From positions 372,001 through 436,000 of the forward strand of contig JAGGDC010000003.1 of the NCBI GenBank assembly GCA_020809425.1: DNA of 64,000 nt. Direction: 5' to 3'. Numbering within the stretch: the first letter of the stretch is position 1; every line of letters begins with the position of its first letter. Under the pieces are notes generated by a model. That model was not told the origin of the DNA. It saw only the letters and a list, made by a program, of their open reading frames with translations, and did not search any database. Below, in pieces: positions 14,150 to 25,364 of this stretch. Origin of the DNA: Candidatus Synoicihabitans palmerolidicus (GTDB taxonomy: Bacteria; Verrucomicrobiota; Verrucomicrobiia; Opitutales; Opitutaceae). The position numbers and the translations under genes are program-made.

Positions 14150-14611
14150 TCACTCCACCGCTTCCGCCACCACCTGAATCTCCACCGTGGAATTCTTGGG
14201 TAACCCCGCCACCGCGACTGCCGCGCGCGAATGACGGCCGGCCTCCCCCAATACCTCGATAAACAGATCACTCGCGCCATTGATTACTCCGGGACTGTTA
14301 TCAAAACTAGACACCGCGTTCACGTAGCCTCCCACATAGATCAAGCGCTTGATATTGCTCAACGAACCCACCGCCGACTTTAACGTCGCCAACGTGTTCA
14401 AGGCACAGATACGCGCCGACTCATATCCCGTCTCCACCGTTTGCTCCGCCCCCACTTGTCCAGAGTGCGTTATCTCCCCGTCCCGCACCGAAATAGTGCC
14501 CGCGCAATAAATCAGATTCCCGGTCCGCACGAACGGCAGGTAATTTCCGCCCGCCGCCGGCGGGTTCGGAAGCTCGAGTCCAAGCTCAGTCAATTTCGCT
14601 TCAGGTTGCAT
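14150..14611 (-). CDS. ridA: RidA/YjgF family protein
   Basis: Reactive imine/enamine deaminase that hydrolyses 2-aminoacrylate-type intermediates, forming a cytoplasmic trimer. I place the start at ATG 14611 (MQPEAKLTELGLELPNPPAA), which gives 153 residues, the length of the longer YjgF-like group; an upstream extension in the same frame is an artefact of the opposing amidase. Visible features are LIYCAGTISVRDG, the NTLATLKSAVGSLSNIKRLI segment, and the conserved Arg in HSRAAVAVAGLP (Arg129) that binds the substrate carboxylate. It is divergent from the amidase gene; in Rut-type pyrimidine breakdown a RidA member (RutC) acts beside an amidohydrolase, but that link is inference. Confidence 0.9.
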   Translation of the reverse strand: MQPEAKLTELGLELPNPPAAGGNYLPFVRTGNLIYCAGTISVRDGEITHSGQVGAEQTVETGYESARICALNTLATLKSAVGSLSNIKRLIYVGGYVNAVSSFDNSPGVINGASDLFIEVLGEAGRHSRAAVAVAGLPKNSTVEIQVVAEAVE

Positions 14612-14764
14612 AACTTCAACTAGGCCTCTTTTCGACTTTGAGGCCAGCTGATTATCCCTTCGCACCATTGAAAAAATCACGGGTCCCCCCGACGCTGCGC
14701 ACGCATGGATATCTCTGCCTGAAAATCCCTCTTCCGAGAAAGCCCGTCGCGAGTCGCGTCCACG

Positions 14765-15869
14765 TTGCAAGAGCGCCTGGCACAACTGACTGCTAACCAA
14801 TCTGATGCGATTTGGGCGCAGATCGCCACAGACTCGCTGGGCGCGAGTGCCGACATCTCCGGAGCCTTGGCCGGTGTTCCTTTCGCCAGCAAAGACCTGT
14901 TCCCTCTCTCCGGTGCACCAACCCGCAGCGGCGGCAGACTCCATTCCCGTATTGCACGCCAGGATAGTACCTTGGTTGCCGCCATGCGCGCAGTCGGAGC
15001 CATTCCCATCGGCAAGACCCACCTTCACGAGTTTGCCTATGGACTCACCGGCGAAAACCCCCATTTCGGTGCCGTCAGTCATCCCCAATTCGCTGATCGC
15101 ACTGCCGGCGGATCTAGCAGCGGATCCGCCGCCGCCGCCGACATCGTGCCCTTCGCATTGGGCACCGACACCGGTGGATCCCTGCGCGTCCCGGCTGCCT
15201 TTTGCGGACTCTACAGTTGGCATGATGTGCCTCGACATCCTTGGATATCCGATGGATTTCCGCTCGCGCCCAGCTTCGACACCGCGGGTTGGTTAACCTC
15301 ATCTCCCGTGGATATTCGGATATTGAATACGACCCTGTGGGGCGACTTTCCATCAAGTGCCTCCACACCGCGTAAAGCTTATCTCGACGCAGCTTCACTG
15401 CACGTCGAAATGGCCTCAGCAGAGACGCAAATAATGGCCGCCAAGGCGTCATCATTCTGCGATCCCTCCCCCATCTCATCCCATGCGGATTTCGCGGCCG
15501 AACTTCATGATACCGGCTTCGCTTACAGCGTGCTGCAAAGCACCGAAGCCTTCGCCGTCCACCAGACCAGGCTCGACGCACGAAAGTCCGCATACGGATC
15601 AGGCCGTCTGGCAACGCATCGATCGCGGTCGTCGTTGGACCGCACGTCAACTTGACCACGCCCACGTAAAGTCAATGCGGGTCAAACTCGCGTTCGCCCG
15701 TTTTTTTCAAGACCACGATTTTCTCATTATGCCGATATCTCCGACCCCAGCGTTGACACACGCTGAGTGTGATCAGTCCCATCGAGAGGCCCTCCTCGCA
15801 CTGCCCCCCCCCTCCGCTTCACTTGCCGGCTTGCCCGCTCTAACCGTGCCCATCGCGCTTCCCTCCTGA
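14765..15869 (+). CDS. Amidase signature family protein, one frameshift
   Basis: Hydrolase with the Ser-cisSer-Lys triad. Numbering from TTG 14765: Lys43 in PFASKDLFPL, the Gly/Ser-rich loop TAGGSSSGSAA with the cis-Ser at about 118, and the nucleophile Ser139 in GTDTGGSLRVPA. A frame change near 15595 is needed to continue VWQRIDRGRRWTARQLDHA and the C-terminus LAGLPALTVPIALPS. An ATG at 14705 is in the same frame but separated by TGA at 14720, so the start is uncertain. The product is short, about 370 residues, as in the small amidase/AtzE-like members. The substrate is unknown; urea-derived amides such as allophanate would fit the neighbouring nucleobase genes, but this is speculative. Confidence 0.75.
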
Positions 15870-15962: not shown

Positions 15963-16760
15963 ATGATTAGAGCTGAAACACCATCCGACTGGATTCTTGT
16001 CACCCACCCCGATCACGCCCACTTGGCTGGTCAAATTGCCGACGCTTGGGGTAATGCCGAATTCGACCGACCTGAGCCCTACGCCCCCATCCGTTACGCG
16101 GTGTATCACCACGACGACGGTTGGCTCAACCGTGACGCCAACCCAAGTCTGACTGCCGCCGGTACACCGGAAGCTTTCATCCGGGAATTAGTCGGGGCGT
16201 ATTCTGCCTTCGAAGAGATCGATCTTCCGTCTTACCTCCAGGTTCGCGAACAAGCCACGCAGGCCGTGACGGCCGTCGATCTCACTGAGGCCGTTTTCGT
16301 CTCCATGCACTCTGTCAACTTACTCACCGAGCAGGTCGACGTGGATACCATTTTGCCGGAACACCGGGCCGCCCACGCTTCATTCGTGGCTGCTCAACAG
16401 GCATGGCAAATGAAAACCCTCGCCACGGTGGGGCTCTCTCCCGACAAAGCCCAGCGCGGTTTCGAATTTCTCCAATGCTGCGACAACCTCTCGCTCATCG
16501 TGTGCTCCGCTTACGACCAGCCTCGCCCTCTGCGTCACCGCCACCCCGATCGCCACGGTCAACTCCACGAACTCCAATCCACTCCGCTCAAGGCCAACGT
16601 GTGGCGTATTTCCCCATGGCCTTTCAAAGACAATTCCGTCGAAATCACCTTGCCTCGCCGCCGCATCAGCAAAGCCTACTTTACCGACTTAAGTTCGTTC
16701 CGCAACGCGTTCGCACAAACTGAAGTTGAGGCTGTCAGCGTCATTCTCCAGAAGGATTAG
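15963..16760 (+). CDS. DUF3891 family protein
   Basis: The N-terminus MIRAETPSDWILVTHPDHAH and the motif YAVYHHDDGWLNRDANPSL are the hallmarks of DUF3891, an all-helical family resembling HD-type folds. Conserved His/Asp residues (HPDHAHL, HHDDGW) suggest a metal site. The 265-residue length is normal and the gene is intact. Function is not established. It sits between an amidase and a nucleobase permease in the same orientation, so a hydrolytic step on a nitrogen compound is possible. Confidence 0.8.
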   Translation: MIRAETPSDWILVTHPDHAHLAGQIADAWGNAEFDRPEPYAPIRYAVYHHDDGWLNRDANPSLTAAGTPEAFIRELVGAYSAFEEIDLPSYLQVREQATQAVTAVDLTEAVFVSMHSVNLLTEQVDVDTILPEHRAAHASFVAAQQAWQMKTLATVGLSPDKAQRGFEFLQCCDNLSLIVCSAYDQPRPLRHRHPDRHGQLHELQSTPLKANVWRISPWPFKDNSVEITLPRRRISKAYFTDLSSFRNAFAQTEVEAVSVILQKD

Positions 16761-16872
16761 GTTCCGATCAATCAGGGCTATCCATGATATTTATTCATGC
16801 ATTGCCCGCCATTCGGGTCCGTCTAATCCTCTGCGGTGGTTGGCACCACCAATGCTTGCACGCCCTCTTCCC

Positions 16873-18240
16873 ATGCTCTCTCGTTTGTTCAAACTCTCTG
16901 ACCACGGCACCACGGTTTCCCGCGAACTGCAGGCCGGCCTCACAACCTTCGCGGCGATGGCCTACATCCTCGCGGTTAACCCCAATATACTGGCCGACTC
17001 GGGAATGGATCGTGCCGCTCTGGTCACCGTAACCGCTCTCACTGCCGCCGTCAGCACCATGCTCATGGCGGCGCTGACCAACTTTCCCCCTCGCCTTGGC
17101 CCCGAGCATGGGCATCAACTCGTTTTTCACCTACTCTCATTTGTCTCGGCGCAGGGGTGCGCTGGCAGGAAGCACTGGGCATGGTGTGCGTAAATGGGTT
17201 TGTTTTCCTCCTGCTTTCTCTCACGGGCGTGCGCGAGAAAATCGTCCGAGCCATTCCTTATTCGCTTAAGATCGCGATCCCTTGCGGCATCGGCTTGTTC
17301 CTCGCGTTCATCGGTCTGAAAAACGGAGGGGTTATCGTGGCGAACCCGGCCACGTTCGTCAGTCATGGAGATTTCACATCAGGCCCGGTCGCCGTCTGCT
17401 TGGCGGGCATCGCCCTGACCATCGTGCTGGTCGCCAAGCGCGTCCCCGGTGCCATTATCATCAGCATTCTCGCAACTGCTATGATCGGTCTGTTCGTGTC
17501 AGACGGCCAGGGAGGTAAAGTAACGACATTGCCGGAGGCGTGGCTCTCTGTCCCGGCCTCACCGGCTCCCGTCTTTCTCCAACTGGAGTTTGGTTTCCTC
17601 AAAGATTGGACCGCGTTTCAGATCGCATTGCCTCTCATCATGACCCTGCTGCTAGTCGATATGTTCGACAACATCGGCACTTTGATCGGAGTCACCAAAC
17701 GCGCCGGGCTCCTCGACGCGGATGGCAATCTCCCCAAAGCCGGAAGAGCCCTCGTCGCTGATTCCCTCGCCGCCATTCTTGGTTCCCTCTTTGGGACATC
17801 CACCGTAGGACATCCACCGTAGGACATCCACCGTAGTCAGTTACATCGAATCCGCCTCCGGCGTCGAGGCCGGCGGTCGTACCGGGCTCACCGCCGTCAC
17901 GGTCGCGGGCCTCATGCTGCTCGCTTTGGTCTTCACGCCTATAATCCGCGCCATCCCTGCGGCCGCAACAGCTCTGGTTGTGATTGTGGGCGGCATCTTC
18001 ATGCTGCAGTCAGTCATCGAGATCAAAATGGACGATTTCCGGGTCGCGGCGCCCGCCATGCTCATGATTTTATGTATTCTACTTACCTTCAGTATTGTCG
18101 AGGGTATCGGGCTCGGTCTCATCTGCGCCGCTTTGATCGCTTTGGCCGACGGCAAAACCAAGACGTTTCCTGTGGTGGGCTATAGCATCGCCGCAGTTTT
18201 CTTTCTGCAGTTTTTCCATATCTTCCCCTTCTCCGGTTGA
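16873..18240 (+). CDS. NCS2 family nucleobase permease (AzgA-like), frameshifted
   Basis: Proton-coupled purine/pyrimidine importer of the AzgA-like NCS2 branch. From ATG 16873: FKLSDHGTTVSRELQAGLTT, FAAMAYILAVNPNILADSGM, and, after correcting shifts near 17095 and 17145, the signature APSMGINSFFTYT-like segment in TM3. Later parts include GIGLFLAFIGLKNGGVI, LPLIMTLLLVDMFDNIGTLI and GVTKRAGLLDADGNLPKAGR, all typical. At 17794-17835 a 14-bp unit is present three times and breaks the frame; with one unit the protein reads GTSTVVSYIESASGVEAGGR, the conserved continuation. The substrate could be adenine, hypoxanthine, guanine or uracil. The downstream genes suggest nucleobase use. Confidence 0.85.
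17794..17835 (+). repeat. 14-bp tandem repeat x3 inside permease gene
   Basis: GGACATCCACCGTA repeated three times without spacer. One copy restores the conserved reading frame; the two extra copies add 28 bp, a net +1 shift, and create a TAG stop. It is either a slippage-prone locus or an assembly error. Confidence 0.9.
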
Positions 18241-18303: not shown

Positions 18304-19905
18304 ATGGCCAATTCCTCCACCAATACCACCGCCTCGGTTCCAACGATCTCGTTTCCCAATATTCCGCCTGAGTTTCAACGACTCGTGGCCGAAATGCAGC
18401 ACTCGACCGGCGCCCTGCTACATCCCCAGACCATGGACGATCGCCCGCTCCACGGCACCACCCTCTACATTGCCACATGCTCACTGGAGACGCGCTACGG
18501 GACCTTTCGCACTCACATCTTCCAGGACATCATCGACCGCCACTACATCATCGCTCTGGCCTATGGAGACATTACCGCCGCCGAAGTGCTCTACACTCGT
18601 CTCCACTCGTCCTGCGTAACCAGTGAAACACTACGTGGGTGCGACTGTGATTGCGTGCAACAGCTCGAAGGCGCGTTCAAAGTCATCGCAGAAAAAGGCA
18701 GCGGCATACTTTTTTATCTCATGCAGGAGGGCCGCGGAGTCGGTTACGTGGGTAAATCCCGTGATCGCATGATGGTGCAGGCGTCGCTCGATCAACTCTC
18801 CACGTTTCAAGCCTATGCGTCCATGGGATTGAAGAAGGACCATCGCAACTACGACAACATCTCGGACATCTATCGCCTGCTTGGGATCACCGCTCCGTTC
18901 ATCGTGCTGACCAACAATCCCGACAAAGTCTCCGCGCTCCGAGATCAGGGAATCAACGTGGTCGATACGGAAACTTTGGAGTTTGAGCCTTCGCCCTTCA
19001 ATCTGGCCTACCTCACGTCCAAAGCCGCCAGCGGCCACATTTTGAGCCGACCTTCCGCCACTGCGGTCAAGCGCGCCCTGCCCCCTGAGCCCGTCGTACC
19101 GTTCAAACCGCACGCCCTGCCCGGCGCCAAACGTTTCATTTATTCGGCCAGTTACTTTCTGCCCATGAAGCCCGTGGATGACGAAGTCCTGCTCGGTGCC
19201 GACGAGTTCCAGGCATTCTTCCGTGACAAAAAGGTCGAGGACTACATCGCCGAGGAGAATCCTCTCATAATCGACTACCAGTTGATTCGCGGCAACCGTT
19301 TCCTCATCAAGATCCACCCGGGCAGCCTCAAGGCGTTTCAAGACGCCAATCCCGAAGATCCCATCGTCGACCTCTTGACCACCCCCTATTGGTTCCGTGT
19401 CCACGTCTACTACGACATCGTGACCAGTCAGGAATTTGTAATCCTGACTCACGGCAAAGCGCGCATCTACGACATCCCCGTTGTGCGGCTGCACAGCGAA
19501 TCGCTTTTAAATCGTTTCCCGCTGCGCACGGTCGAGAACCGCGACAAGTTTAAGCAATCGGTGAAGCACATCGTTACCTACGGGATTGGTGTGATCCAAC
19601 TCATTTACAACGACGGGCGCGGAGCCGGCTTCGGAGCCTACGCGACGGACCTCATGCTTTCTGAAGCGGGCTTGGCGCTCTCCAGCGATGAAGCCTACAA
19701 ACGCATCGGCGTAGACTACGATAGCCGTGATTACGAAGCGTCCGTTTCCTTGCTCAAGCAGCATATTCCAAACGAAAAAATCCAAATGATGATGAATTCC
19801 CCCTCCAGTCTTGTCAAGAAGCCGGAGTATGCACTCGCGCTGCAGCATCACAAGGTGGACGTGGAACGCTGGATCTTTCTCGATGACGAATCTCTCGGAG
19901 AATGA
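18304..19905 (+). CDS. Tandem GTP cyclohydrolase II-like protein
   Basis: A 533-residue protein with two RibA-like halves. The N-terminal half (about 50-240) has the zinc site as Cys104, Cys115 and Cys117 (HSSCVTSETLRGCDCDC, same spacing as Cys54/65/67 of E. coli RibA), the catalytic loop LMQEGRGVGYVGKSRDRM and VLTNNPDKVSAL. The C-terminal half (about 360-520) keeps a recognisable HSES and YNDGRGAGFGAYATDLML but lacks all zinc cysteines and the TNNP motif, so it looks like a degenerate, non-catalytic copy. No DHBP synthase domain is present. It is translationally coupled (ATGA) to a SIS gene and follows a nucleobase permease, not riboflavin genes. RibA homologues outside riboflavin synthesis include Urc1 of the yeast uracil-degradation pathway; a similar role here is inference. 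True riboflavin RibA is less likely. Confidence 0.75.
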   Translation: MANSSTNTTASVPTISFPNIPPEFQRLVAEMQHSTGALLHPQTMDDRPLHGTTLYIATCSLETRYGTFRTHIFQDIIDRHYIIALAYGDITAAEVLYTRLHSSCVTSETLRGCDCDCVQQLEGAFKVIAEKGSGILFYLMQEGRGVGYVGKSRDRMMVQASLDQLSTFQAYASMGLKKDHRNYDNISDIYRLLGITAPFIVLTNNPDKVSALRDQGINVVDTETLEFEPSPFNLAYLTSKAASGHILSRPSATAVKRALPPEPVVPFKPHALPGAKRFIYSASYFLPMKPVDDEVLLGADEFQAFFRDKKVEDYIAEENPLIIDYQLIRGNRFLIKIHPGSLKAFQDANPEDPIVDLLTTPYWFRVHVYYDIVTSQEFVILTHGKARIYDIPVVRLHSESLLNRFPLRTVENRDKFKQSVKHIVTYGIGVIQLIYNDGRGAGFGAYATDLMLSEAGLALSSDEAYKRIGVDYDSRDYEASVSLLKQHIPNEKIQMMMNSPSSLVKKPEYALALQHHKVDVERWIFLDDESLGE

Positions 19906-20993
19906 TGAACTTCACCGCCGATTCCGCCGCCGATCCGTTCGGTCACAATTTGTTGGCTCAGCGCCTGCAGCTCATTCCACAGATTCTAACCGATATGTTG
20001 ACGGCGGGGCCTCGCCCGCTTTCGCCCCGCTCACTCGCCAGTCAGCGCTTCATCGTGACCGGCACCGGCAGCTCCGAAGCTCACGCTCGCTACTTGGCGA
20101 CCTTGCTCAATCTCCACAGTGATCTCGCGGCGGCTTACCTTCCCCTCTCCGGTTTCGTAGATGCCCCTCCGGCGATGTTCGCCGGGAAAACTCTCGTCGT
20201 TTTCAGTCAAGGCGTCTCGCCCAACGCACAAATCGCTCTGCAACGCGGCCGCGATTTCGCCCACACCATACTATTTACCGCCACTTCGCCGGAAGCGGCT
20301 GAGACCGCCGGAAAAACCGATCGAGCCCGTCTCCTGCGCAGCATTCTCGATCAGAGAGGCGAGTTGGTGGAGTTTCCCTTGGCGGAAGAATACACGACCT
20401 TGATTCGTTTCGTGGGTCCACTGGCTGGCTACCTGACCGCACTGCAGTTCACTGCTCAGTTTTCCAGCTCGCGAGTAATCCTGCCGACCGCCGCGGATTT
20501 GGCTCCCCTCCTCGCCGCCAAAGCCCCCTCCCAGCTACGCGACGCCATGTGTCAGTTGCCCAGCGAGTTTGCCGGGGGACTTAATGTAATTACGGCCGCT
20601 CCCATTTCTGATTTCTCTCAGAATCTGGCCTGCAAGTTCATGGAAGGCCTGTATTGGACCTGTCCCTCGATTTCGGATTTCCTTCAGTTTGCCCACGGAC
20701 CATTTCAACAAATGACCGCTCATCCGAAACCAGCCATCATTCTCCAAGGAGATGGACCAAGAGAAGCTGAGATGGTTCAACGTGGTGTCGACATGTTGCG
20801 CGGAGTAGGCGCTAGCGCATTTGTGATTCAAGTGCCGGCGCCCCCCTTGCTCTCGATTTTTGGCTTTGAGGCCGCCCTCAATGACCTCGTATTCCAGGCC
20901 ATGCGCCACCTTGGCGTGGATCAGGTCAATTGGCCTGGCAAAGGCCGCGACGACCAGCTCTACGGATTCTGTCCGGATCCTGCGACTGCCTGA
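19902..20993 (+). CDS. SIS (sugar isomerase) domain protein
   Basis: Overlaps the RibA-like gene by ATGA, implying coupled translation and a shared pathway. The first SIS module shows IVTGTGSSEAHARYLATLL (about residues 50-68) and TLVVFSQGVSPNAQIALQR (about 95-113), the phosphosugar-binding Ser/Thr loop pattern. The second module has FMEGLYWTCPSISDFLQFAH followed by GPFQQM, resembling the Glu and HGP elements of GlmS-type isomerase domains. No glutaminase domain is present. The ligand is probably a phosphosugar, perhaps the ribosyl product of the coupled enzyme; this is inference. 363 residues, intact. Confidence 0.75.
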   Translation: MMNFTADSAADPFGHNLLAQRLQLIPQILTDMLTAGPRPLSPRSLASQRFIVTGTGSSEAHARYLATLLNLHSDLAAAYLPLSGFVDAPPAMFAGKTLVVFSQGVSPNAQIALQRGRDFAHTILFTATSPEAAETAGKTDRARLLRSILDQRGELVEFPLAEEYTTLIRFVGPLAGYLTALQFTAQFSSSRVILPTAADLAPLLAAKAPSQLRDAMCQLPSEFAGGLNVITAAPISDFSQNLACKFMEGLYWTCPSISDFLQFAHGPFQQMTAHPKPAIILQGDGPREAEMVQRGVDMLRGVGASAFVIQVPAPPLLSIFGFEAALNDLVFQAMRHLGVDQVNWPGKGRDDQLYGFCPDPATA

Positions 20994-21062: not shown

Positions 21063-23404
21063 TCAGAAGCGGAACTTCACCGTGAGCTCGGAGCGAATGC
21101 CTTGCTCGGCCACGATCGCCTCGTTGCCATAGGTGCCGTTGGGCGGAGACCAATTCTCTTCATCCGTAAGGTTAAGCACAGACAAACGAGCTTCCCAAGT
21201 GTCGGCCGTATAGAAAACGCTGGTATCGATTTCATATTGCGAAAGAATCACCAGCGTGCCCGCCCAGTTGTTGTTGATCTCGTTGTGGAAAGTGCCGTTC
21301 AAGGTAACACCAAATCCGTTGTCGAACTTGTAGGAGACCATACCATTCATTTGGAAGGTCGGGCAGCCCCTGAATCTTCGTCTCGCCGCCGGAAGCGCGT
21401 TGCACCTCAGGTGCCACCGCCGGGGACACGTTCACTGCCTCAAAACCAACTCCGGGTGTAGTCGCGTCGATGTAACCCATGGAGAACGTCGTGAAGAAGT
21501 TCTTGTTGGGTTGGTAGTTCACTTCGAACTCCACTCCATCGTAAGTGTAAGTCGCGACTGGGCTGTTGATCGGCTTGTTTTGACGGATCTGGTGATAGTA
21601 CGCCGCACCGAAGAAAAGCTTGCCGTCCATCATCGAACGCTTTGCGCCGACCTCGAACAGTTCACTGGGTTGAGTGAAATCGGCCTTGGTCAGAACAATG
21701 TCACCATTGCCATCACGACCAAGACCGGCGAAACCACCACCATTGCCCGTAGCACCAGAGGTATTTTCGCTCAAATTACCGGTGACGTAAAATGTCAGCG
21801 CTTCGACCGGCTCATAAATCAAACTCGCGTTGACGTTGGGTAGCGTGACACTGATTGAACGCTCAGAATCATCCGTAAACGGATCCTCAGTCGTGACCTT
21901 AAGAAAATCGGGGCGACCACCGGCCACGAGGGAGATTTGATCGTTCAGTTTGAAAAAACCCTGCACGTACGGAGAACCGCTGATCGCGGAAGACTCAGTG
22001 GTATCGCCATTCTCGAGCTGTGAACTCGCCATCCGACCCGGGTAACCGGGAACCGGGCCGCCATCGAATCCGAGCGCTCCCTGGCCATAGCCGGGAAAGT
22101 TGACCGAATTGCGGACATCGATGTAGGTGAGGTCACGGGTCAAGTTCCAAACCGCTGCCGGCACAAAATAGAAATCGTTGTAGGCCTTGTGGGTGATGTA
22201 ACGTCCCGCGACACCGGCATTCAGCTTGTGGTCACCAAACGACTTGATGAACTCCAAGCGCGACTCAAACGTGACCGACGGGTCCACGATTTCGGAATGG
22301 AATAGTAGTAGGCACTGAAAGTTTCCCGGCGAGTGTAGGTGAACAAATTGTTGTTCACGATGGTCAGGTCAGGATCTCCCTTGAAGGTCTGAACCGCCTG
22401 CACTTTGAAGTTACGGCCAATCGAATTGTCGCCCGGGTTAAGCAAGCGACGGCTGCGATCGAGTTTCACCTCGGGGCCCAACTCATTTGATTGGACGGAA
22501 AACCACTCGTGACGTAAGCGGAATTTTGAGAATCCAAATCTGGAATGCCAGGTCCCTGATTGGTATTTACGCCTGTGCGATAAAGGCCGTTGTCAATCAG
22601 GTTCTGCGTCGGACGATTGATACCTAAATTTTCGGTGTATTCCGCATAAAATGCCTGCGCATTAAGGAAGAGTTCATAGTCATCTGACGGACGGTAAGTG
22701 ATCGCCGCGTAGAGAGAATGGCTCTTGCGATACTCGTCGGCATACCATCCTTCGGAGTCTTCTCCGGAATAAGAGATGCGGTAGGCCAATTTGTCGGAAA
22801 CTGGAGCACCAAAGTCGATCCCTTCTCGGAGGATCCCGTCAGTGCCGGCCGTGACCCAGGCTTCTCCATTCGCCTGATCAAAATACGGACGCTTGATGAT
22901 GTAGTCGATAAAACCGCCCACGTAGGCAGAGGCGCCTTGAACCGCTGTGGCCGGACCTTTGACGATATTCACCGACTCAACCCAGTTGAAATCGATCGGC
23001 ACTCCGTTTCCGTTGCTGGTCAAACCACCCCTCATACCGTTGTAAAACACATCGGCATACTGACCACGAATGTCGGGATTCGCCGGTGCGCCAAAGTTCG
23101 AACGGGTGAAGAAACTCGAAGTCAGCTTGGCAAAAGCTCGAACATCTTGAATCCCGATGGCCGTAAGCTGCTCACGGGAAATAATCGTCACGCTGCGGGG
23201 AGTGTTTAGGATGCTGTCGCCCACCCCGAAGACTGACTCGAATGGCCGCGAAGTCGGCATGATGTTTTCCTCGATGGGAACATCGTTGACTTCAAATTTC
23301 TCCATTTCGATCGGGTCTTCATCCGCAGATTGAGCCCCGGTAAACGGAGTAAGGCCGGCAAACAACGCTGCCAGCGGTAGCGATTTAGATATAAGTCGAT
23401 TCAT
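21063..23404 (-). CDS. TonB-dependent outer membrane receptor, frameshifted
   Basis: Active importer for a large ligand across the outer membrane. From ATG 23404: signal peptide MNRLISKSLPLAALFAGLTP ending near GAQSA, then EMEKFEVNDVPIEEN typical of Opitutales receptors. The plug domain follows (SILNTPRSVTIISREQLTAI, NFGAPANPDIRGQ, NWVESVNIVKGPATAVQGAS), and then the beta-barrel with many aromatic strands. The end TWEARLSVLNLTDEENW and IRSELTVKFRF-stop is the usual TonB C-terminus with a final Phe. Frame breaks occur near 22480, 22280 and 21350. The plug resembles siderophore-type receptors rather than SusC. It lies downstream of the adenine deaminase on the same strand; the cargo is unknown. 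Confidence 0.85.
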
Positions 23405-23536: not shown

Positions 23537-25364
23537 TTATGCGCCCCTCACTTCAAACAGAGGTGAAATGGCCATTCCCGGCACCGTGATCAACCCTTTG
23601 TCGGTGATCCGGATCTCTGGAATCACAGAAAGAGGGATGAGGTTGAAGCCCATGTAAGGCAGTGTGCATCCCACTGCAGACCATGCCTTGTTGAGTTTTT
23701 ACGAGGCCTTCGCGACCACCTTGGCCCGCTCGTCCGAAAGCAACCCCGCCACCGGCAGAGCCACCGAGGCCACCAATTTTCCGTTTCTCCCTACCCCCCC
23801 CTCCCTTACTCTGCTGAATCACTCTGCTGAATCGTTTGGAGGGCAAACATCATATGCGACTCATTCGTGCCCGCGATGATCAAATTATGCGCATCGTGCC
23901 CCACACTGCTGGCGACTGCGCCATCCTTGAGACCGAAATTGCGCAGCAATCCGTGGGCAACTTCTCCCGAGAGTCCGTGGCGCTCAATCACGCTCACACA
24001 ACACAAATCATGATTCACGAAATGCTCCTCCCATGACGTAGCGGGCTCCCAAATCACTTTTTCGTGGAAGAGAATAATTCCCGGCAACTCCGTACGAATC
24101 GTATTGGCCACAACTCGCTCGGTTGGTAGTTCCGGCACCAGTTTAGGTAATTTCCGGGGCAGCTTAATCGTACGGTAGGCTGCTTTCGGGTAACGATACG
24201 GCTGACTCAATGCTGCCTCCAATACCGGAGTAATCCGGCGATTTCGGACCACCAACTCGCCTCCATACCAAGTGCTTGGCGGTTCCAACGCATCGTTCAT
24301 CAACACCAAATCCGCCCGACGTGCCGGCCCCAATCCACCAATTTCATTGTCCAAATGAAAGCGAGTCGCCGGATGCAGGGATCCCATGCTCACAACCGTC
24401 TCCGTGGATACTCCGGCCCTCACTGCTTCCCGCACCACCCAGTCCAGTCCAAACATGAACAAACCATCCGCATCCCGATCATCCGTGCATACACAGACTC
24501 GCTTGGGATTGGCCCCCAATTCCGTCACCGTCTTGATCGCCTGTGGAAGGGAATGCCAAGGCGTAGTGGGGGGCCGCCGCGCAAGAATACCCACACCCCG
24601 TTCTCCAGAAAATCATCCGCAATTTCCCGGTCTATGGCTTCATGTGTATCGTTGATTCCACTGGCCGCCCCTGCTGCCACGAATTCCCGTCCGTAAATAT
24701 GTCCGCTGATCGGCTTCCCCCGCTTGATCGCCTCTCCCTGCACCGCGTGACTGCGCTCATCACCCATCGCGACTTGCACAAAAGCCATCTTCTCGCCCAA
24801 AGCTACCGCCTCCGGCCACCGATCGAATAGCTGACCAATTTTCTCCGGCGTCAGGTCCCCTCCTGCAGTCTCAAACGCCGCCTAAGTCGCCGGGACCGTG
24901 CTCGGCACGGTCAGGAATATATTCAACGGCGCTTGTCGCGCATCCTTGAGCATCCACTCAATTCCCGCCGTATCACACACGTTACCAATTTCATGACTGT
25001 CGCAAAATATTGTCGTCGTGCCGTTTAACAACGCCGCTTCAGCATAGGCACACGCCGTCATCATCGAGCTCTCAATATGGATATGCTGATCCACCAAACC
25101 GGGCGCAATAATCCCTCCCCTTGTGTCAAAAAACTTCGTCTCACTTCCTTTCCGTTTTTTGCATGTTCCGTCCGGCTTCACCTCGGCAATTCGCCCGGCC
25201 TTGATCCATACCTCCCGTGCCTCGTGAATCCGTTCCGTATAACTCGAAAAGACCCGCCCCCCCCCTCTTATCACTAAATCCGGTTCGGCCTGCCCCATCG
25301 CCACGGCGGCGAGTTGACGAGTTACGGTGTTCAATGGTGGAACGGAGAATCGAGTAAGAGGCAT
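23537..25364 (-). CDS. ade: Adenine deaminase, frameshifted
   Basis: Converts adenine to hypoxanthine and ammonia in purine salvage; amidohydrolase family with bound metals. From the start at 25364 ([20 protein letters not shown]) the N-terminal part has [20 protein letters not shown] (metal His pair) and [21 protein letters not shown] break near 24880 leads to [20 protein letters not shown], another near 24590 to [16 protein letters not shown] and [14 protein letters not shown]. The C-terminal part [20 protein letters not shown] is followed by a 13-bp duplication and a G-run that disturb the frame; the true end [20 protein letters not shown] and [16 protein letters not shown] can be read to a TAA at 23537. 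Total length, about 600 residues, matches the family. Confidence 0.9.
23808..23833 (-). repeat. 13-bp tandem duplication inside adenine deaminase gene
   Basis: On the gene strand GATTCAGCAGAGT occurs twice in tandem, adding 13 bp just after IQQS and shifting the frame. It resembles the 14-bp triplication in the permease gene. Confidence 0.85.

Follow-up and report, generated by a model that had tools for sequence, protein, structure and literature searches.

Background

The best-described relatives of the proteins considered here belong to riboflavin synthesis, nucleotide degradation and phosphosugar metabolism. The yeast protein Urc1 is a homologue of GTP cyclohydrolase II (GCH II), the RibA enzyme of riboflavin synthesis, and the URC system of Lachancea kluyveri (Urc1, Urc4, Urc6) combines this RibA homologue with a phosphoribosyltransferase (PRT) in degradation at the nucleotide level. 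A COG3236 N-glycosidase, which acts on riboflavin intermediates, releases ribose 5-phosphate from a RibA product, and among the phosphosugar enzymes with two SIS domains the deglycase FrlB cleaves its Amadori phosphate. Purine breakdown, as known, proceeds via xanthine and urate or by reductive variants of that route. In Sinorhizobium and Brucella, BrbF, a member of the creatininase family, deformylates a formamidopyrimidine (FAPy) nucleotide during riboflavin synthesis, and the GCH partner of BrbF is reported as unknown (PMC9478397).

Here we compare these systems with a locus from Candidatus Synoicihabitans palmerolidicus (genome G000), using as the window a stretch of 64,000 nucleotides of contig JAGGDC010000003.1. 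The protein families, conserved residues, gene fusions, co-occurrence and neighbourhoods are reported as observed, and are followed by a proposal for what the encoded enzymes may do.

A tandem RibA-like gene coupled to a SIS gene

The sequence-only reading of this DNA had described a 533-residue tandem RibA-like protein, with a zinc-bearing N-terminal half and a degenerate C-terminal half, whose stop codon overlaps the start of a double-SIS gene. Both parts of that description hold. The core features, of which we call the first RibA2, are as follows.

18304..19905, + strand: RibA2, tandem GTP cyclohydrolase II-like protein, 533 aa (ORF, PF00925, residue comparison, tree)
18472..18969, + strand: N-terminal GCH II domain, residues 57-222 (Cys104/115/117, Arg181, and Arg155 for the canonical Tyr105)
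19372..19902, + strand: C-terminal degenerate GCH II domain, about residues 357-533 (GRGAGFGAY kept, zinc cysteines gone)
19902..20993, + strand: double-SIS protein of phosphosugar isomerase/deaminase/deglycase type, 363 aa (motif positions Glu248, His265, Lys347)

PF00925 matches the RibA2 reading frame in two stretches (174 bits, Pfam), profile comparison relates the C half to the N half and to E. coli RibA with 99.5% probability, and the best Foldseek match is E. coli RibA (2bz0). The N half retains the three cysteines and the QEGRG loop, and its Arg181 is of the catalytic type, while in the C half the zinc ligands of cysteine are gone and GRGAGFGAYATDLM remains. The C half is probably a built-in partner subunit. 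In deltaproteobacterial relatives it is shortened, at one locus (L069) to the point of stopping short of the GRG loop and the second arginine, so that catalysis by this half is improbable in those bacteria. The RibA2 and SIS genes are unbroken in the window, unlike several of their neighbours. With an estimated completeness of 69.8% and several genes in broken frames, absences from the G000 assembly mean little.

The stop codon of RibA2 shares an ATGA with the start codon of the SIS gene, and a GGAG lies shortly before it. Against the Pfam SIS model the partner scores 14.6 bits, under the cut-off of 25, but its AlphaFold model (pLDDT 87) bears out the fold, aligning over nearly its full length (about 320 residues) with double-SIS phosphosugar enzymes at Z scores of 20-28.3. 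NagB-II, GlmS/GFAT and other phosphosugar isomerases give Z scores of 25-28, and the FrlB deglycase 21. Most members of the SIS family keep the Glu...HGP...Lys pattern of GlmS-type enzymes, as judged by motif reading and not by structural superposition, and by analogy with FrlB this pattern would fit cleavage of a ribosylamine phosphate. The partner shares a full-length fold and, as far as motif reading goes, apparently the Glu...HGP and Lys positions with the GlmS isomerase domain, NagB-II and FrlB, but differs from them in falling under the Pfam cut-off and in its coupling or fusion to RibA2 and creatininase; it is a sequence family of its own.

RibA2 is distinct from canonical RibA

Relatives of RibA2 were sought in the order Opitutales, in the phylum, in GTDB contigs and in one deltaproteobacterial class. 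The search returned 51 loci, many of them metagenome-assembled, which dereplicate at 90% identity to 43, and RibA2 is present in 15 of the 132 genomes of the order. No relative was found in the viral contigs searched, nor a full-length one in the plasmid search. A Rhizobium plasmid match, considered as a Urc1 comparator, was rejected as an ordinary single-domain GCH II adjoining transposases. One genome (G050) carries a second, frameshifted copy of RibA2 near a RidA gene (L048 8278-9309), and a small RibA2 clade adjoins an NCS2 gene at loci without SIS in G091 and an Ereboglobus MAG (L038, L060).

In a tree of GCH II domains, where the comparison set consisted of 29 RibA/RibBA domains of canonical type and 6 RibBA domains that are degenerate, all 43 RibA2 N halves lie beyond a single branch of length 1.9 and support 100/100. 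When the same 43 N halves are compared with 28 canonical members in E. coli RibA numbering, every one keeps Cys54/65/67, Gln70, Glu92, Arg94, Lys101, Asp126, Arg128, Thr149 and Lys154. The position of Tyr105, in contrast, which is tyrosine in all 28 canonical members, holds arginine in 42 RibA2 proteins and cysteine in the remaining one; the Ala104 position is aspartate in 41 of 43, and the Glu53 position is serine or alanine throughout. With the zinc and catalytic residues kept and the pocket changed, the N domain has the appearance of a working zinc enzyme. RibA2 falls under the cut-off of the NCBI equivalog TIGR00505 (151.4 bits against 205.85) and above that of the subfamily model NF001591 (183.7 against 148). 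It therefore shares with RibA (E. coli 2bz0, TIGR00505) the fold, the zinc cysteines, the catalytic-type arginine and the GTP-site residues, but differs in its tandem form with a degenerate second half, in the Y105R, A104D and E53S changes, in its separate clade and in its SIS partner. By tree and residues, RibA2 is a family distinct from canonical RibA.

Linkage to SIS and creatininase proteins

The tie to the SIS gene, on which the sequence-only reading depended, is conserved in relatives. Within the order Opitutales the SIS family (alignment A2) occurs in 14 of the 15 genomes with RibA2 and in none of the 117 without it, a contrast whose Fisher p of 5e-18 overstates the number of independent events because the genomes are related. 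The exception is G091, where no SIS was found genome-wide. A SIS gene accompanies RibA2 at 35 of the 43 dereplicated loci, in nearly every case immediately following it or fused to it, and some of the loci without it are contig ends. On one deltaproteobacterial contig (L067) RibA2 and SIS are fused into a protein of 792 aa, and at nine other loci of the deltaproteobacterial class a SIS-creatininase fusion lies directly 3' of RibA2, its creatininase part being confirmed by PF02633 at L069.

The creatininase linked to RibA2 matches PF02633 at 196 bits and has the E-x-H-G, HGGN and HAGE metal motifs. It is found in 13 of the 15 Opitutales genomes with RibA2, as against 29 of the 117 others, and within about 10 kb of RibA2 at 16 of the 43 loci (nine of them the deltaproteobacterial fusions). 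Given the fusions and the co-occurrence across phyla, the simplest reading is that RibA2, SIS and creatininase share a pathway. A link between RibA2 and creatininase is also chemically sensible, considering that BrbF acts on a FAPy nucleotide. The likeness to BrbF is at the level of the creatininase family and of a presumed action on the product of a formyl-leaving GCH; the RibA2-linked creatininase differs in being fused to SIS.

A second, degenerate creatininase is found near RibA2 at seven of the 43 loci, and in G000 the creatininase pair is a single fused protein away from the RibA2 locus. Paralogues that lack the metal motifs stand beside or fused to an intact creatininase at L036 11433-12044, L041 5072-5623 and L161 8907-10472 (the G000 fusion), and are perhaps pseudo-subunits. 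Elsewhere (L167, L168, L172) a creatininase pair clusters with an amidohydrolase, DUF2165, a cytosine-deaminase-type protein, an FAD-binding protein and an ABC transporter, the last with an NMT1/THI5-type binding protein at L167; a cluster of this type also occurs in a genome without RibA2.

Other neighbouring genes

Around the core pair lie the following genes.

14150..14620 (start approximate), - strand: RidA/YjgF-family protein, confirmed
14765..15869, + strand: amidase, in two frames here; PF01425 in relatives
15963..16760, + strand: DUF3891 protein (PF13030), a recurrent neighbour
16726..18240, + strand: NCS2 permease of AdeP/GhxQ (purine) type, in three frames here; intact in, e.g., L034 10453-11790
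23806..25364, - strand: adenine-deaminase-like amidohydrolase, in fragments here; homology to L044
25442..26876, + strand: adenosine-deaminase-like protein, in two frames here; homology to L044

An upstream NCS2 permease, DUF3891 protein and amidase had been named earlier and are all present, although the permease and amidase genes are spread over several frames; RidA was likewise named correctly, and homology supports the two deaminase assignments. A TonB-dependent receptor gene is also split across frames. Relatives carry intact NCS2, amidase, adenine-deaminase-like and TonB receptor genes, and the frame-split genes at 14765-15869, 16726-18240, 21063-23404 (the receptor) and 23806-25364 suggest assembly indel errors or decay.

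Within about 10 kb of RibA2 at the 43 dereplicated loci, amidase is found at 17, RidA at 16 and the NCS2 permease at 13, so that the permease linkage recurs as well. DUF3891 and Amidohydro_2 follow with 10 loci each, and PRT, TRZ/ATZ-type amidohydrolase and formamidase with seven each. The Amidohydro_2 gene is a recurrent neighbour on the opposite strand (e.g. L034 11832-12800). No Urc4 (DUF1688) is seen among the annotated neighbours of RibA2. The setting of permease, deaminase, amidase, formamidase and RidA belongs to the verrucomicrobial loci; outside the module, the deltaproteobacterial neighbours (lipid desaturase, cytochrome c, ABC permease, ketoacyl synthase) are not purine genes.

Four of the permeases, when tested, shared 37-44% identity with the E. 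coli adenine permease AdeP and 32-38% with GhxQ; UraA, RutG, XanQ and UacT were matched only weakly. Two linked PRTs (PF00156) best match hypoxanthine/xanthine PRT models (HPRT/XPRT) and not uracil PRT (UPRT). Permeases of this kind together with such PRTs favour purines over pyrimidines.

A possible route of purine dismantling

We regard it as an even call whether RibA2 and SIS provide the entry steps of a route that dismantles purines at the nucleotide level. Its substrate, product, step order and catabolic direction, like the role given above to the C half, we infer from family membership, motifs and gene context. The substrate would be a purine nucleotide, either made from imported adenine, hypoxanthine or guanine by the linked PRT that some loci carry, or taken as a nucleoside triphosphate. 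The zinc-bearing N half of RibA2 would open the imidazole ring, and would probably stop at the FAPy nucleotide, in view of the arginine that replaces the canonical Tyr105. A change at this position in the GCH II of Streptomyces coelicolor, in work by Spoonamore from 2006, reportedly yields a product that goes no further than the formamidopyrimidine. The creatininase-family hydrolase might then act like BrbF and strip the formyl group, or else open the next ring, and the SIS protein would cleave the ribosylamine bond and return a sugar phosphate. The pyrimidine would be left for amidohydrolase, amidase, formamidase and RidA to finish.

In canonical GCH II, Arg128, Thr149 and Lys154 serve a triphosphate. 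Their retention means that the substrate could be GTP itself and not a salvaged monophosphate; indeed, these residues argue for a triphosphate in preference to a PRT-made monophosphate. Other observations count against the route: PRT, formamidase and amidohydrolase each lie near RibA2 at just seven of the 43 loci, several RibA2 loci have no SIS, and the deltaproteobacterial surroundings are not purine genes. The xanthine dehydrogenase gene xdhB gave no strong match in any RibA2-bearing genome of the order, a point of little force. Mutual exclusion of the two was considered and given little weight: RibA2 is absent from all nine genomes of the order whose xdhB match exceeds 450 bits, but with RibA2 in 15 of 132 genomes this is expected by chance about one third of the time.

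Alternative explanations

The sequence-only reading had asked whether a separate ribAB set exists, failing which RibA2 would be the riboflavin enzyme. G000 does have a RibBA, whose GCH II half lacks the zinc ligands, as does that of most genomes sampled in the order (such halves are seen at L001, L024-L033 and G000:C4:54305-54751). Perhaps, then, RibA2 serves riboflavin synthesis as its GCH II, replacing the degenerate RibBA half, with the SIS gene incidental. The loss of the RibBA ligands means that RibA2 could in principle supply riboflavin, and no other GCH II with a zinc site was found in G126, G114 and G094, whose genomes are complete. Against this, 100 of the order's 132 genomes encode lumazine synthase (RibH), and the majority of these (including the complete G035 and G090) have neither RibA2 nor a canonical RibA, so the order must have another riboflavin route. 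Moreover, RibA2 and a canonical GCH II occur side by side in genomes of the deltaproteobacterial class such as G206, and riboflavin synthesis gives no role to the tightly linked SIS gene. With the RibBA check only half in favour of a separate set, and the other evidence weighing against, riboflavin synthesis is disfavoured and quite unlikely as the role of RibA2. Slightly more credible, if still unlikely, is a biosynthetic module in which GTP is turned by RibA2 and SIS into a modified pyrimidine, a pterin-like compound or an antimetabolite. GCH II homologues do start other specialised pathways, for instance that of vicine in faba bean (PMC12202586); RibA2 retains the GTP-site residues, and the deltaproteobacterial loci lack degradative neighbours. 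The verrucomicrobial neighbours (permease, deaminases, amidase, formamidase, RidA), however, form a catabolic set, and a SIS protein of this type would release the sugar phosphate and not keep it.

Ring opening followed by processing of a ribosyl phosphate, as suggested earlier, fits the parts found here, but the pyrimidine (URC) version of that suggestion finds no support. Opening of UMP by the RibA homologue, in a pathway akin to URC, would recall yeast, in which Urc1 and the uracil phosphoribosyltransferase Urc6 work together (PMC7530994) and whose URC pathway is conceptually the closest system described; the Rid-family protein RutC works in pyrimidine breakdown (PMC8113886). It is difficult to reconcile a UMP-opening pathway with linked PRTs of HPRT/XPRT type in place of UPRT and with an AdeP-like permease. 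RibA2 also reaches at most 27 bits against NF005536, which we take to be the bacterial Urc1 model, whose cut-off is 403. Very unlikely as a pyrimidine pathway, the RibA2 system is URC-like in outline, sharing a RibA homologue, a phosphoribosyltransferase and degradation at the nucleotide level, but it is not a URC member: it fails the Urc1 model, its PRT and permease are of purine type, and SIS and creatininase are linked instead. No better placed is a clean-up system that disposes of purine nucleotides after damage, or of RibA products made in excess. The COG3236 N-glycosidase offers a precedent in releasing a sugar phosphate from a RibA product, though its family is an unrelated one, and the minimal three-domain module does stand alone in Deltaproteobacteria. 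RibA2, on the other hand, looks like a ring opener and not merely a hydrolase of existing damage, and in Verrucomicrobiota its gene keeps company with those of importers and degradative enzymes; clean-up is improbable.

Implications

No description of a RibA-SIS pair was found in the literature searched, in which subscription papers are poorly covered, so that novelty is unproven. We propose tentatively, and with somewhat less than even credence, a new nucleotide-level purine degradation: the imidazole ring would be opened by an enzyme descended from RibA, with no preceding oxidation to xanthine or urate; creatininase and SIS would take off the formyl group and recover the sugar phosphate, and hydrolysis of the pyrimidine would follow. 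RibA2, SIS and creatininase make a concrete three-enzyme set that can be expressed and assayed directly. If the proposal is true, the pathway would be to purines what URC is to pyrimidines and a chemically different route of purine breakdown, independent of molybdenum hydroxylases and returning the ribose phosphate, and it would show how an enzyme of vitamin synthesis was recruited for catabolism.
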